In this document: one piece after another, positions 8,540 to 19,697 of the stretch | How positions within the stretch are numbered: position 1 is the stretch's first letter | How the letters are laid out: each line of letters begins with the position of its first letter | Assembly (NCBI RefSeq): GCF_022848905.1 | Contig: NZ_JAFIRA010000038.1 | Location: 1 to 39,260, forward strand | From: Thermostichus vulcanus str. 'Rupite' | GTDB lineage: Bacteria; Cyanobacteriota; Cyanobacteriia; Thermostichales; Thermostichaceae | Direction: 5' to 3' | Length of the DNA: 39,260 nucleotides | Program-made: the position numbers and the translations under genes | The notes under the pieces: generated by a model | Seen by the model: the letters and a program-made list of their open reading frames with translations, nothing else | Databases searched by the model: none | Told to the model about the DNA's origin: nothing

Positions 8540-8718
8540 TTGTTGGGATGAAAAGTGGCAGCCCAATGGAGGAGATCGAGCAGCTCAGCTAGCCATTTTC
8601 CCAAATGGGCCTGACTCCAGAAAAGATCGTCGGCAAAGACAGGGTGGTGATCGGCTTGGTGGGGGATACCGCTAGCCTAGATGAGCTGGAGATTCAGCAG
8701 TACGGCCCCCCTTCATAG
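8536..8718 (+). pseudogene. Relic of DAHP synthase N-terminus
   Basis: From ATG 8536 one frame reads MIVGMKSGSPMEEIEQLS, an in-frame TAG, then QMGLTPEKIVGKDRVVIGLV with GDTASLDELEIQQ after it, and a stop at 8716-8718. This matches the first ~60 residues of the class I DAHP synthase of cyanobacteria (the regulatory-type AroF/AroG with an N-terminal ferredoxin-like domain), normally about 340-350 residues. The barrel domain is absent. With an internal stop and a missing catalytic domain this is a remnant. Its ATG overlaps the PAM68 stop codon, so the intact gene was probably once translationally coupled to PAM68. The 160 bases that follow hold only G-rich unassigned sequence. Confidence 0.8.
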
Positions 8719-12824: not shown

Positions 12825-14591
12825 ATGAGCTCCGTCGCTGCATCCGAAGTTAAGCGTTCCAAGGTTGAACAGATCAAGGAACAGAGCCATTTTTTGCGGG
12901 ATCCCCTGCTGGAGGAACTGGCCGAAGACACCACCCATTTCAGCGAAGCTGCTGTTCAGGTGCTCAAGTTCCACGGTACCTATCAACAGGATGACCGGGA
13001 TACCCGCCAGCAGCGACGACAGGAGGGCCGAGAACGGGATTACTCCATGATGTTGCGCACCCGGATCCCCGGCGGGCATGTGCCCCCGCAGCTGTATCTG
13101 ACCCTGGATCGGCTGGCGGATCAATACGGCAACGGCACCCTCAGGGCCACGACGCGACAGACCTTTCAGCTCCACGGGATCCTGAAAAAGAATCTCAAAG
13201 CCACCCTAGCCAGCATTCTGCACCAGATGGGATCCACCCTGGCTGCTTGCGGTGATGTCAACCGCAATGTCATGGCCCCCGTCGCCCCCTACAAAAACCG
13301 CCCGGCCTACCGCTATGCCCAAGAATATGCCCGCAAGTTGGCGGATTTGCTAGCCCCGAAAACCTCCGCCTACTACGAAATCTGGGTGGATGGTGAACCC
13401 ATTCCCATCCCGCCCGTGGATGAAGATGTCTTGGTCGCGCAAGAATTTGTCGGCCATGGGGTGCGCCTGGAAGGACCTGAACCCCTGTATGGCCCGGTCT
13501 ATTTGCCGCGCAAGTTCAAAACAGCCATCACTGTGGCTGGAGAAAACACGGTGGATGTCTATTCCCAAGATTTGGGCCTCATCGTCCTCACCGATCGCAA
13601 AGGCAGTCTTAAGGGCTTTAACATCGTAGTGGGTGGGGGGATGGGCCGTACCCACGGCAAAGAAGAAACCGAGCCGCTCCTAGCCCAAAAGCTCTGTTTT
13701 GCTCCACCAGAGTCTGTCCATCAGATTTGCCAAGCGATTTTGGCGGTACAGCGGGATCACGGCAACCGTAGCGATCGCAAGCAGGCGCGGCTGAAGTATT
13801 TGGTCAGGAAGTGGGGGATCCGCAAGTTCCGCCGCGTGGTGGAGGAGTATGTTGGGGAGAAACTGCAACGGTTCCGCCCCTTGCCCAAATTTGTCCCCAA
13901 CAGCGATGACTACCTGGGTTGGCATGAACAGGGGGATGGCCGTTGGTTTTTGGGGATTTCCATCGAGAATGGCCGCATTCAAGACAGCCCGACTCGGCAA
14001 CTGAAAACGGCGCTGCGCCGGATCACTGAAGCTTTTTCCTTGCCCTTGCGGGTGACCCCCACCCAGGATGTGTTGCTGATTGATATCGAAGACCGGCAAC
14101 GGGATCTGATCAACCAGATCCTCAAATCCCATGGGGTACTCTCCAAAGAAGAAATTCCCCAATTGGTGCGGCTGGCGATGGCCTGTCCTGCTTTGCCCAC
14201 CTGTGGCCTGGCGATTACCGAGTCGGAACGGGCTTTGCCCGGTTTAATCCGCCAGTTGGATCGGCTGTTACAGGAGCTGGAGTTGCAGGATTCTCCTTTT
14301 TTGGTGCGCATGACCGGCTGCCCCAATGGCTGTGCCCGCCCCTATCTGGCGGAGTTGGGGTTGGTGGGATCCACGCCAGAACATTACCAAGTGTGGTTGG
14401 GAGCCAGCCCCGAGGGGGATCGCCTTGCCCAAGTCTTTCAGGAACGGGTTCACATCGATCAGATTGTCCCGCTAATGCGATCCCTGTTGCAGCTTTACAA
14501 ACGGGAGCGCTATCCCCAGGAAGCCTTCGGAGACTACTGCCACCGAGTTGGGATCCCCTATTTGCAGGCCCAGATCCCACAAACCGTTTAA
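12825..14591 (+). CDS. sir: Ferredoxin-dependent assimilatory sulfite reductase
   Basis: Reduces sulfite to sulfide with six electrons from ferredoxin, using siroheme coupled to a 4Fe-4S cluster. The four cluster ligands are clear: Cys454 and Cys460 (CPALPTC), Cys499 and Cys503 (CPNGC). The first cysteine pair is in a sulfite-reductase rather than nitrite-reductase context (CGLAITESER). The duplicated ferredoxin-like halves are evident (LRATTRQTFQLHGI; the second half near LRVTPTQDVLLIDI). At 588 residues it lacks the NADPH-flavoprotein partner. ATG 12825 has GGAGG nine bases upstream, among the best ribosome-binding sites in the window. Confidence 0.95.
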   Translation: MSSVAASEVKRSKVEQIKEQSHFLRDPLLEELAEDTTHFSEAAVQVLKFHGTYQQDDRDTRQQRRQEGRERDYSMMLRTRIPGGHVPPQLYLTLDRLADQYGNGTLRATTRQTFQLHGILKKNLKATLASILHQMGSTLAACGDVNRNVMAPVAPYKNRPAYRYAQEYARKLADLLAPKTSAYYEIWVDGEPIPIPPVDEDVLVAQEFVGHGVRLEGPEPLYGPVYLPRKFKTAITVAGENTVDVYSQDLGLIVLTDRKGSLKGFNIVVGGGMGRTHGKEETEPLLAQKLCFAPPESVHQICQAILAVQRDHGNRSDRKQARLKYLVRKWGIRKFRRVVEEYVGEKLQRFRPLPKFVPNSDDYLGWHEQGDGRWFLGISIENGRIQDSPTRQLKTALRRITEAFSLPLRVTPTQDVLLIDIEDRQRDLINQILKSHGVLSKEEIPQLVRLAMACPALPTCGLAITESERALPGLIRQLDRLLQELELQDSPFLVRMTGCPNGCARPYLAELGLVGSTPEHYQVWLGASPEGDRLAQVFQERVHIDQIVPLMRSLLQLYKRERYPQEAFGDYCHRVGIPYLQAQIPQTV

Positions 14592-14616: not shown

Positions 14617-15636
14617 TTAAAAGCGAGACCAAGCCCGCAGCCATTCCCGTAGCGTTTCCAGCCATCCGGTCGGCTGGGTCGTTGCTAAAGGGGATCCGGT
14701 GACCGAGTCTTCTTTGGGAAGTAAGTTGGCCTGTCTGGGATCCACGGCATAAACCTGAATGGTCTTGGCGTTGGGGGAGGGTTTCACGGGGTGCGCCTGC
14801 ACTTGCGAGAGTTGCTCCTTCACCGCTCGATACACAGGTGCAGAGATCAACAACTGGGAACTGAGCTCCCCATTGGCGGACTCTAGCCAGGTGGCAAAAT
14901 TCACCGATTTGCCAAAGGCAGAAACCCGTTGTGGGTCTTGAGGATCGATATTCAGCAAAATGGTTGGCCCATAGTGGATCCCGAGAGTGAGACTGACCTC
15001 TGGGTAAGAGAGTTCCCGCAGCGTGGTGTTGAGGTTGGCCACCGATTCCAGGAGAGCTAACCCCGTTTGTAGGGCTTGCTGTACTGCGTCCTGAGGATTC
15101 TGAGGATTTTTGAGGCCAAAAAGCGCCAGGCTTTTGAAGCCGCTGTGGCTGGCCAATACCCCCTGATACCGCTGCACGAGCGCACCCATTTGGGTAAAGT
15201 AGCGGCCCAAGGTATAGACAATGTCGTAGGGAAAGTTATCTTCGTCAAAGGTGGCCATCCCCCGCAGAGAAGCACTGAGAATGGCTGCGGAAACTTGGCT
15301 ACCCATGGACTGAGCCCGCAATTGGTGCTGGGCTACCTCCACATCTTCCCTGTCGAGGACTAGCCGTTGCAGCGTCACATCTCCGGTGATGCGAGTTTGG
15401 CAGGCCAGCCGGATATGAACAGGTAAATCTAGCCGTTCCGCCAATTTCTTCTCGGCTGGAGTCATGCTGCGACAATGTTCGCTGCCTTCCAGGATCATGA
15501 TGCGACAGGTGGAGCAGGCGGCATTGCCTCCACAGGCATGGGCATGGCGCACCCCTGCATTGAGAAGGTTTTCCAGAACTGTGTGGAGAGGGCTGGCCTC
15601 AACTACGAGGTTGTCGGGGCGACAAGTAATCCGCAT
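14617..15636 (-). CDS. 2Fe-2S ferredoxin fused to degenerate class III cyclase domain
   Basis: A 339-residue two-domain protein. Residues 1-95 are a plant-type ferredoxin fold with cluster cysteines 35, 41, 44 and 79 (CGGNAACSTC and LACQ). Residues 110-290 align with adenylate/guanylate cyclase catalytic domains (AILSASLRGMATF, LGIHYGPTILLNI, AFGKSVNFATWLES). However, both metal-binding aspartates are lost: the SDIRG position reads SASLRG (Ser123) and the GDG position reads GFK (Phe167). The transition-state Arg is Trp250, though Asn246 remains. Cyclase activity is therefore unlikely; a redox-responsive binding or regulatory role is possible. ATG 15636 has GGAG seven bases upstream. It is divergent from the TPR gene. 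Confidence 0.85.
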   Translation of the reverse strand: MRITCRPDNLVVEASPLHTVLENLLNAGVRHAHACGGNAACSTCRIMILEGSEHCRSMTPAEKKLAERLDLPVHIRLACQTRITGDVTLQRLVLDREDVEVAQHQLRAQSMGSQVSAAILSASLRGMATFDEDNFPYDIVYTLGRYFTQMGALVQRYQGVLASHSGFKSLALFGLKNPQNPQDAVQQALQTGLALLESVANLNTTLRELSYPEVSLTLGIHYGPTILLNIDPQDPQRVSAFGKSVNFATWLESANGELSSQLLISAPVYRAVKEQLSQVQAHPVKPSPNAKTIQVYAVDPRQANLLPKEDSVTGSPLATTQPTGWLETLREWLRAWSRF

Positions 15637-15773
15637 CGTTGGCTCCAGCAAAAGAGACTTTACAAGAACACCTAATCCCAATACGGAGCTGCCTCCGGTT
15701 TGGATACGTTTTTCCTCAACTGACCGCCACAACTCAGATGATAGAGTACAGAAAAGTCTGTGCGAGCCGTTTC

Positions 15774-16619
15774 ATGCCTCAGTCCAAACCCAATGAATCT
15801 CCGATCCGCAAACTATTCAAAACCCTGGTGTTGGTGATTGGGCCGCTGATCCTGCTCAGCTTCTCCTTTGGCCCGTTGTTGCAAGCTTTTGGGCCGTCCA
15901 GTTCGGCAGATACCAGCTTGGTCACCGAGCAACTGCAAACGGAAGCCGATGGCTATCGAGCCGTGCTGGAGCGGGAGCCTGATAACCGCATTGCTCTGGA
16001 AGGGTTGATCAACACCCAATTGCAGTTAAATGAGCCAGAGGGGGCAATTGAGCCGCTGAAAAAGTTGGTGGAACTTGAGCCAGAAGATCGGGGCCTGCGG
16101 GGCTTTTTGGCCCAAATCCAACGGGAAACCGGCGACCTTGAAGGGGCGGTCGAACAATTGCAAATCCTCTACGACGGGGATCCCCGCGACAGTCAGGTTT
16201 TGCAGGAGCTGGCCAGTACTCAGGTGATCTTGGGCCGCAACTCAGAGGCGATTGCCCTGTTGGAAAATCACCTCAAGGAGGTACCGGAGGATCATGATGC
16301 CCGTCTGCAATTGGCTTTTGTCTATGCCCGTGACAACCAAACTGACAAAGCAACTGCCCTTTATGATGAGATGATCGCGGCGGATCCCAGTGATTTTACG
16401 CCTGTGTTGGGTAAGGCGATGGCCCTCAGTTCTGCAGAAGATGAGACGCTACGGGCACAAGCGCCAGAGCTGTTTGATCAAGCCGCCCGCTTGGCCCCAC
16501 CCCAACTTCGGGAACAGATCGAGCGGGAAGCAGCACTCTACGCTCAGTTGAATCAGCCCCAACCTGTTGAGAATCCTGTCCTGGAAAGTGAAGACCCTGA
16601 GAGCACCCCGACTCCATGA
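15774..16619 (+). CDS. Membrane-anchored TPR protein
   Basis: 281 residues: a short cytoplasmic N-terminus with basic residues, one membrane helix at about 16-38 (LFKTLVLVIGPLILLSFSFG), then tetratricopeptide repeats from about residue 60 to 235 (for example EGAIEPLKKLVELEPEDRGL and EGAVEQLQILYDGDPRD). The tail is Pro/Glu-rich and ends PESTPTP. TPR domains are protein-binding scaffolds; the partner is not evident. The upstream frame extends to 15639, but ATG 15774 is the first start that places the charged N-terminus before the membrane helix properly. Its stop overlaps the start of the next gene (ATGA), so both are one operon. Confidence 0.85.
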   Translation: MPQSKPNESPIRKLFKTLVLVIGPLILLSFSFGPLLQAFGPSSSADTSLVTEQLQTEADGYRAVLEREPDNRIALEGLINTQLQLNEPEGAIEPLKKLVELEPEDRGLRGFLAQIQRETGDLEGAVEQLQILYDGDPRDSQVLQELASTQVILGRNSEAIALLENHLKEVPEDHDARLQLAFVYARDNQTDKATALYDEMIAADPSDFTPVLGKAMALSSAEDETLRAQAPELFDQAARLAPPQLREQIEREAALYAQLNQPQPVENPVLESEDPESTPTP

Positions 16620-17041
16620 ATGGACTCCCCAGACCTTCCCGCTCAGCGATAGGGATCCCTATAGGCTTGCTCATGCTCCTGTTGCCCGCTTGTCGAGATT
16701 CGACAGAATATATGCCGATCAACCCGCAAGCCTTTCGGGAACAGTACAATCTCTCTGGCGCATCCGAACCGGCCCAGATCGGGATCCAGCTGTTGCAGCG
16801 CTACCGCCAGGAGCCAGAAGGTCGCCAAGGGGAGTCTCTGCACATTCGGTATTTACCTGACCAGAAGGCGGAGATTCTCTTGACTATTGAGGGCTTGGCT
16901 GATGATTCGGTGCAGGGGAAGCGTTATCGCCTAGAAATGGGCTGGACGGAAGCCGGTTGGCAGATGGAAACCGTGGGATCCCAGCAGCGCTGTTGGCCGG
17001 GGCGTGGACATCCAAACTGGTCGAACCAACCCTGTGTTTAA
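16616..17041 (+). CDS. Predicted small lipoprotein of unknown function
   Basis: 141 residues. The N-terminus has basic residues, a hydrophobic stretch (IGIPIGLLMLLLPAC) and a lipobox LLPAC with Cys26, so it is predicted to be exported and lipid-anchored. The mature part is polar with Tyr/Gln-rich segments and two Cys near the C-terminus (QRCWPG and QPCV) that might form a disulfide. I recognise no domain. The ATG overlaps the TGA of the TPR gene, which implies translational coupling and a shared envelope-related job. Confidence 0.75.
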   Translation: MNGLPRPSRSAIGIPIGLLMLLLPACRDSTEYMPINPQAFREQYNLSGASEPAQIGIQLLQRYRQEPEGRQGESLHIRYLPDQKAEILLTIEGLADDSVQGKRYRLEMGWTEAGWQMETVGSQQRCWPGRGHPNWSNQPCV

Positions 17042-17909: not shown

Positions 17910-18833
17910 TCATGGGGGAAAAGATGGGGCAACCACCTGTTCAAGCAGGTCTTCAAAGGCTTGGGCGGCGCGAGAGGTATAGCGTTGTCGATGTTTGAGC
18001 AGCAAAAAGGGGCGTTGCAGAGCATCCGATCCAGAGGTTAGGGGCACCGCCTGTAAGTCTCCCAAGCGGACTTCATTGCGGATCATCATTTCTGAGATCG
18101 CAGCGGCAGCGGATCCCTGGCTCACCAGAGCTTTCACCATTTCCCCACTTTGCAGTTGCAAGATCACCGATAGAGACTCCGGTGGGATCCCCCATTGGGC
18201 GAGGGCGGCTTCAAAGTGTTGTTGTGTGCCAGATCCCGGTTCCCGCACAATCCAGTCGGTTGTTGTCAGCTCGGCAATAGAGACCTCCCGCCGATGGAAC
18301 CAAGGGTGTTTCGGCCCAACGATGACGCAAAGGCGATCCCAGCCGATGATTCGCTGCTCCAGCTGGGTTTGATCCTCTGATCGCACCACCCCTTCCACCA
18401 AACCCAAATCAAAATCTCCCCGCAGAACCCCTTCACCAATGGCTTCGGTATTGGCCAGGGTGCAATGCACTCGTATGCCCGGATAACGCTGCTTGTAGGT
18501 GCTGATGCGATAGGGCAGCCAGTAGTTGCCGATGGTGAGGCTGGATCCCAGGTGCAGCTCCCCCATTTGTAACTGGTTGAGCTCCCGCAAGCCCTGTTCC
18601 AGTTGGTGAACTTGGTCGAGGATTTGTTGGGCGTGGGTCTGCAGCCAACGTCCGGCTTCGGTTAATTCCACCCGACGCCCCAGGCGGTGAAACAACCGGC
18701 TCCCGTAGCTGCGTTCCAGGGTTTGGATGGCAGCACTGACGGCAGGTTGGGTGATGAATAGGGCGGTGGCGGCACGGGTGAAATGCAGATGCTCCGCTAC
18801 AGCCAGAAAGATGCGCAGTTGTTCTAAGGTCAT
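17910..18833 (-). CDS. LysR-family transcriptional regulator
   Basis: 307 residues. The winged helix-turn-helix is at 1-60 (MTLEQLRIFLAVAEHLHFTR, ITQPAVSAAIQTLE, LFHRLGRRVELTEAG). The linker helix and the periplasmic-binding-like effector domain follow (GELHLGSSLTIGNYWLP, VEGVV, IVREPGSGT). It is transcribed divergently from the TauE/SafE permease with a 111-base shared region. By the usual LysR rule it probably regulates that gene and itself. The effector is unknown. In sequence style it is CbbR/CysB-like, but subfamily cannot be fixed by eye. Confidence 0.93.
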   Translation of the reverse strand: MTLEQLRIFLAVAEHLHFTRAATALFITQPAVSAAIQTLERSYGSRLFHRLGRRVELTEAGRWLQTHAQQILDQVHQLEQGLRELNQLQMGELHLGSSLTIGNYWLPYRISTYKQRYPGIRVHCTLANTEAIGEGVLRGDFDLGLVEGVVRSEDQTQLEQRIIGWDRLCVIVGPKHPWFHRREVSIAELTTTDWIVREPGSGTQQHFEAALAQWGIPPESLSVILQLQSGEMVKALVSQGSAAAAISEMMIRNEVRLGDLQAVPLTSGSDALQRPFLLLKHRQRYTSRAAQAFEDLLEQVVAPSFPP

Positions 18834-18944
18834 CGGCGTGACTCAGGATCATCATCTCAATTTATCGTTTTTAGAAAAAAAACTATTTGCTCTTATGAAT
18901 TGCCTCCTTTACTGTCAAGACAGAGTTGTATCATTGGTGGCATC
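18834..18944. promoter_or_regulatory. Divergent LysR/TauE control region
   Basis: AT-rich stretch between two divergent starts. An imperfect dyad, TTATCGTTTTTAG and then AAAAAAACTATTTG (about 18861-18891), stands out against GC-rich surroundings and includes spacings compatible with the LysR consensus T-N11-A. Operator role is inferred only. Confidence 0.35.
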
Positions 18945-19697
18945 GTGACTTGGTGGTTAACCTTTTTGGTGGGCTGTGGGATTGGCTTCTGTGCCGGAAT
19001 GTTTGGGTTAGGCGGTAGCTCTTTGGGCACACCCCTGCTGCGTCTGCTGGGAATGCCTGCCCTTTTGGCCTTGGCGAGTCCTCTGCCGCTCACCCTGCCC
19101 AGTGCGTTGGGAGGGGTGGTCACGTTTCAAAAGCAAGGCTTAATTCATTGGCCGGTGGTGGGTCGGACGGTGGCTTGGGGGATCCCGGCGGTGGCCTTGG
19201 GGTCTTGGACGACGAAGTTTGTGCCGGGGGTGGTGCTGATGCTGCTGACGGCGGTGTTTATTTTGGGGATTGGAGTGTACGGTGTCAGCGGCTTACGGGG
19301 TTTCTTGCCGAGCGAAGGAGAAAAGCAGTTGCACCTGGAGCGGATCCCGGTGGGTTCGGTGCTGCTGAATTTCCTCAACGGGGTACTGGCCAATGGGGGT
19401 GGGTTGGTCTTGGTGCCTTTCTACCAGTTGGGGGTCGGACTGGATCTGCGGGGTGCTTTGGCCAGTTCTTTGGCTTCAGTGGCATTGTTGGCGATCCCAG
19501 AGATTTGGGTACACAGCAGTCTCGGCCATATTGATTGGGGCACCACCTTCTGGCTGGGGTTGGGGGTGTTCCCCTTTACGGTGTTAGGAGGCAAATTGGC
19601 TCTACGGCTATCCACGCCCCTGCTGACCCGCCTGTACGGAGGATTTTTGGTAGTGCTGGCCCTTTACTTTGGCATTCGGGAGATTCAGCAGTTCTAG
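18945..19697 (+). CDS. TauE/SafE-family anion exporter
   Basis: 250 residues with about seven to eight hydrophobic segments and the internal duplication typical of the family: GCGIGFCAGMFGLGGSSLG in the first half and NFLNGVLANGGGLVLVPF in the second. These permeases move sulfite, sulfoacetate or other organic anions across the cytoplasmic membrane. GTG 18945 is the likely start; a TTG at 18900 would add residues unlike a membrane N-terminus. The divergent LysR gene suggests substrate-controlled expression, and a sulfite reductase gene lies 4.4 kb away, but a sulfite substrate is not proven. Confidence 0.88.
   Translation: MTWWLTFLVGCGIGFCAGMFGLGGSSLGTPLLRLLGMPALLALASPLPLTLPSALGGVVTFQKQGLIHWPVVGRTVAWGIPAVALGSWTTKFVPGVVLMLLTAVFILGIGVYGVSGLRGFLPSEGEKQLHLERIPVGSVLLNFLNGVLANGGGLVLVPFYQLGVGLDLRGALASSLASVALLAIPEIWVHSSLGHIDWGTTFWLGLGVFPFTVLGGKLALRLSTPLLTRLYGGFLVVLALYFGIREIQQF

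Follow-up and report, generated by a model that had tools for sequence, protein, structure and literature searches.

A gene of Thermostichus vulcanus str. 'Rupite' encodes a 2Fe-2S ferredoxin (Fer2) domain fused to a class III cyclase domain that is almost certainly catalytically dead. The most probable reading, to which we give a probability of roughly 0.55, is that the protein is a redox-controlled regulator making no cyclic nucleotide, in which the cyclase part would form a non-catalytic dimer and the flank of the former active site would offer a partner surface. The gene lies in a stretch of 39,260 nucleotides, analysed as a whole and hereafter called the window, and its parts are positioned as follows.

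14617–15636, minus strand: Fer2/class III cyclase-like fusion gene, 339 residues plus stop, ATG at 15636.
15364–15636, minus strand: 2Fe-2S ferredoxin (Fer2) domain, residues 1–91, with a Pfam Fer2 match and four cysteines.
15313–15354, minus strand: linker helix from ferredoxin to cyclase, residues 95–108 (helix 96–108 in the AlphaFold2 model).
14737–15300, minus strand: class III cyclase homology domain without metal site, residues 113–300, from Pfam Guanylate_cyc, the AlphaFold2 model and fold matches.
15268–15270, minus strand: Ser123 codon, first metal aspartate position, from alignments to Cya2 and to intact Fer2-cyclases.
15223–15252, minus strand: FDExNF(P/H)YD segment, residues 129–138, specific to the dead clade.
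15136–15138, minus strand: Phe167 codon, second metal aspartate position, from the same alignments.

A longer open reading frame that starts from a TTG and extends to 15732 was set aside in favour of the ATG at 15636, because full-length orthologues align from that same methionine and the upstream start is dispensable. The Fer2 domain, of the vertebrate/ISC type, matches PF00111 over residues 8–84 (E 4.9e-10; 39.6 bits for a curated cut-off of 21), and its nearest solved structures are ferredoxins of the ISC/adrenodoxin type, such as 1i7h. Its four cluster cysteines, announced as intact in the original prediction, do follow the pattern C35-x5-C41-x2-C44-x34-C79 and are invariant in all sequences tabulated (100% in all groups). 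In addition, Cys55 is conserved across all cyanobacterial members and a further cysteine near residue 5 (Cys5 in the window) is aligned in 26 of the 30 dead-clade members. A disulfide or a role beside the cluster is possible. The second half of the protein matches PF00211 (Guanylate_cyc) over residues 117–280 (E 1.9e-9; 37.8 bits for a curated cut-off of 21.9).

The residues required for catalysis are lost from this second half. In the alignment to Synechocystis Cya2 (2w01), the best match among solved structures, Ser123 and Phe167 occupy the positions of the two metal-binding aspartates, Asn246 corresponds to the transition-state asparagine and Trp250 replaces the arginine. The register is unchanged in the alignment to intact Fer2-cyclases, which places Lys243 at the aspartate of the GD motif. 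Hence, the four substitutions and the retained asparagine described in the original prediction are confirmed. A register with hidden metal aspartates, which would have overturned it, was found in none of 30 homologues; Asp131, although fixed throughout the dead clade, lies eight residues past the position of the first aspartate. With 40 homologues as input, AlphaFold2 yields a confident cyclase fold (mean pLDDT 90.2, pTM 0.82), the outcome of a structure prediction that had been suggested as a check. Foldseek and VIA-align 2 match residues ~110–305 of the model to the catalytic domains of CyaB, CyaC and Cya2, with Z scores of 22–24 and an rmsd of 2.5–3.0 Å over ~190 residues. The cyclase part is therefore predicted to fold while its chemistry is missing. 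A predicted difference concerns the stretch directly after the strand of the first aspartate: a modelled intact relative has a short helix there (its residues 133–138), where the model of the window protein has a loop.

The protein belongs with the soluble Fer2-class III cyclases of Microcoleus, Leptolyngbya, Chloroflexi, Rhizobium and others: the domain order is the same, the length is similar, all are soluble, homology runs over the full length (roughly 30–42% identity in the examples compared) and the dead clade stands beside the intact cyanobacterial members in the tree. These enzymes keep both metal aspartates, the GD motif, the asparagine and the arginine and have no FDExNF(P/H)YD segment, whereas the window protein is the opposite at each point except Asn246. 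Ferredoxin-domain class IIIb adenylate cyclases, such as Rhodopseudomonas palustris Q132R4, also carry a 2Fe-2S ferredoxin N-terminal to a class III catalytic domain, but they possess a haem-type membrane anchor, a cytochrome b-like unit of six helices (PMC4821796). In contrast, the window protein has no metal site and nothing before the ferredoxin, which begins at the protein start, and its AlphaFold2 model contains no anchor region. On the other hand, the solved catalytic domains of CyaC from Arthrospira (Spirulina) and of Cya2 have the fold in common with the window protein, but they have no ferredoxin and hold the active-site residues that it is missing.

When contigs were scanned for relatives, a single-protein query returned no match and an alignment query returned matches. 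Of 388 cyanobacterial genomes, 52 contain full-length Fer2-cyclase fusions (54 genes), whose scores are well separated from those of ordinary cyclases; many other phyla and rhizobial plasmids carry such fusions too. Among distinct sequences, 30 have neither metal aspartate and 76 have both, with no intermediates; three rhizobial plasmid relatives, checked for loss outside the dead clade and not as a census, retain both. By our count, the dead form makes up 29 of the 54 cyanobacterial fusion genes. It is spread over at least eight families of cyanobacteria (f1, f8, f15, f17, f23, f24, f27 and f31), and the closest named relative of the window protein is that of Synechococcus sp. M44_DOE_062. 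Two genomes hold one copy of each form (G191, with L131/L177 and L164; G318, with L045/L146 and L149), which fits distinct roles. The patchy occurrence of either form among the 388 genomes counts against the redox-regulator reading.

Some members of the family deserve separate mention. One dead-clade gene that falls inside the cyanobacterial clade (L048, 1291–2295) lies on a contig binned as Chloroflexaceae, so that the contig was probably mis-binned or the gene transferred. Four dead-clade members (L169, L170, L085 and L094) have long branches and a more divergent cyclase part. In L085, Pfam gives no significant cyclase match, which also counts against the redox-regulator reading, yet Asp131 and Phe135 are present. 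The position of residue 163 usually holds the substrate-specifying lysine. At this position, the 27 intact cyanobacterial Fer2-cyclases (L018–L025, L051–L164) have Asn (18), Val (8) or Ile (1), and they may themselves be non-canonical cyclases.

A tree of 72 sequences, with its root on the members from outside the cyanobacteria, groups the dead form into a single clade (support 100/99) nested among the intact Fer2-cyclases. Removing the columns of the catalytic motifs leaves this clade undivided (SH-aLRT 97), as does, with lower support, restricting the tree to the Fer2 domain (94). Because this holds in the three trees, a single loss of the metal site, in an old lineage of cyanobacteria, is the most likely course; several independent losses are supported by none of them. 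Within the genus, dN/dS is 0.06–0.10 for Fer2 and 0.10–0.19 for the cyclase part. For the cyclase part in Pseudanabaena it is 0.035–0.12, close to the 0.06–0.10 of intact Microcoleus copies, individual values being rough as dS is saturated in wider pairs. These ratios indicate that both domains of the dead form are under purifying selection. Overall, the nested clade and the selection on it uphold the earlier view that a cyclase descended from intact 2Fe-2S fusions has lost catalysis and kept its redox domain.

Conservation is redistributed in the dead clade. Both metal aspartates are absent from all its members (0/30, versus 27/27 and 37/37 in intact relatives), and the Phe-Thr after the first aspartate, the base-side threonine and the GK.G motif found at the C-terminus of intact members are no longer conserved. 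The GD aspartate is retained in 14 of 30 members, the asparagine in 18, the arginine in 20, and asparagine and arginine together in 12. Within the Fer2 domain, identity hardly differs between the dead (0.62) and the intact group (0.63), and the linker helix is conserved equally or slightly better in the dead clade, whereas identity in the cyclase part drops to 0.43 vs 0.65. Segment 129–138, whose motif takes the place of the first active-site element, goes the other way, with 0.74 in the dead clade vs 0.66 in the intact relatives; once the sequences are dereplicated at 60% identity, the values are 0.75 vs 0.59. Two of its residues, Asp131 and Phe135, never vary (30/30), at positions where intact relatives have Ser or Ala and mostly Leu or Pro. 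A second, weaker rise in conservation is seen near residues 202–213 (LNxxLxxLSY). Such newly fixed residues beside a dead site are the strongest indication of a new function and speak against mere decay.

Slow decay, with the cyclase part surviving as a relic that serves only the folding of the ferredoxin, would agree with its faster divergence relative to intact relatives and with the loss of the gene in one species. It is nevertheless hardly credible, given a cyclase-part dN/dS of 0.04–0.19, reading frames that are open throughout, the heightened conservation of segment 129–138 and the spread over so many families. As far as sequences can tell, the dead form is probably a regulator and not a product of decay. 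Class III cyclases act as dimers, and their N-terminal sensors work through a short helical element. In the redox-controlled regulator proposed here, the cyclase-fold domain would dimerise in the same way, the state of the 2Fe-2S cluster would be transmitted through the linker helix to this dimer, and the remodelled segment (Asp131, Asn134, Phe135) would dock a partner protein or another ligand in place of metal-ATP.

The genes around the fusion bear on what such a partner might be.

15774–16619, plus strand: divergent neighbour encoding a TPR protein (Pfam TPR), ATG at 15774.
16616–17041, plus strand: neighbouring open reading frame encoding a small protein with a lipobox-like N-terminus.
12825–14591: nitrite/sulfite reductase gene, adjacent to the fusion.

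The divergent TPR and lipoprotein-like genes of the original prediction thus exist, the product of the second having no Pfam or NCBIfam match. Their proposed partnership with the fusion is unsupported, because adjacency of the TPR gene is confined to the genus, the lipoprotein gene is covered in one relative only and another genome keeps the TPR gene without the fusion. In detail, the TPR gene adjoins the fusion in 5/5 fusion-holding genomes of the genus; G007 and the other families lack this arrangement, and TPR homologues are sited elsewhere in other genomes. Nucleotide alignment to the window covers the lipoprotein gene in one of four relatives (G003). In the complete genome of a sixth member of the genus (G001), the reductase and TPR genes are joined directly and the fusion is cleanly absent (L188, ~8590–8700). 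The fusion is hence dispensable in one species, a point against the redox-regulator reading, as is the fact that a search for conserved gene neighbours of the fusion across families found none. A shared regulatory element was also considered in the divergent intergenic stretch. Its clearest block, ATGATAGAGTACA, directly precedes the TPR start and probably belongs to the TPR gene, since it is near that start and is present also in the fusion-less genome. At 17910–19697, fairly near the reductase gene, the genes for a LysR-type regulator and a TauE/SafE protein (sulfite exporter family) are divergently oriented.

Alternatively, the fusion could be an ordinary electron-transfer ferredoxin on a dimerising scaffold, with a dead cyclase domain that only docks it to a redox enzyme or pairs two ferredoxins. 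Fer2 is the best-conserved part of the protein and resembles electron carriers of the ISC/adrenodoxin type, and segment 129–138 could be the docking site. We consider this rather unlikely: the same Fer2 is tied to a signalling enzyme in the intact ancestors, and the reductase is not a conserved neighbour, adjoining the fusion in only 3/5 fusion-holding genomes of the genus (the window, G004 and G005).

It is still less probable, and in our judgement doubtful, that the protein is the regulatory half of a heterodimeric cyclase whose other half is an intact class III enzyme present in the same cell, in the manner of C2 with C1 in animal adenylyl cyclases. Retention of both transition-state residues in part of the dead clade would suit such a pairing, as would the two genomes with both Fer2 forms and the presence of other cyclase-domain genes in the dead-clade genomes checked. 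However, the window protein itself has no arginine, the one clear other cyclase of its genome is an FHA-cyclase of different make-up, and G001 still has a cyclase-domain gene although it is fusion-less.

The original prediction had offered two roles, a redox-sensing regulator or a nucleotide sensor. The first agrees with a dead cyclase that has kept its redox domain. The second, an emptied pocket that would bind a nucleotide or cyclic nucleotide without metal, can invoke the retained cyclase fold, but becomes very unlikely because the metal aspartates, the Phe-Thr after the first of them and the base-side threonine are gone, together with the GD aspartate and the arginine in this lineage; the GK.G motif conserved in the intact group is lost as well.

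The redox-controlled regulator is thus the reading that we retain. In a wider formulation, an ancient signalling enzyme of the cyanobacteria would have become a non-catalytic redox switch on a single occasion, with FDExNF[P/H]YD replacing the metal-ATP loop and reading the state of the cluster out to a partner; this is tentative, and we rate it at slightly less than even. Pseudokinases and other pseudoenzymes are recognised regulators. Within the scope of our literature search, which had most subscription journals outside it, neither a description of a soluble dead Fer2-cyclase clade nor any conserved clade of pseudo-cyclases bearing a redox sensor domain was found; the main text of the survey PMC2447327 has nothing on inactive or ferredoxin-linked cyclases. 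For members of the dead clade, the automatic annotation 'adenylate/guanylate cyclase' is misleading. With its single origin, its new invariant residues and the two genomes that hold both forms, this clade offers a direct test of the conversion of a second-messenger enzyme into a redox regulator in oxygenic phototrophs.
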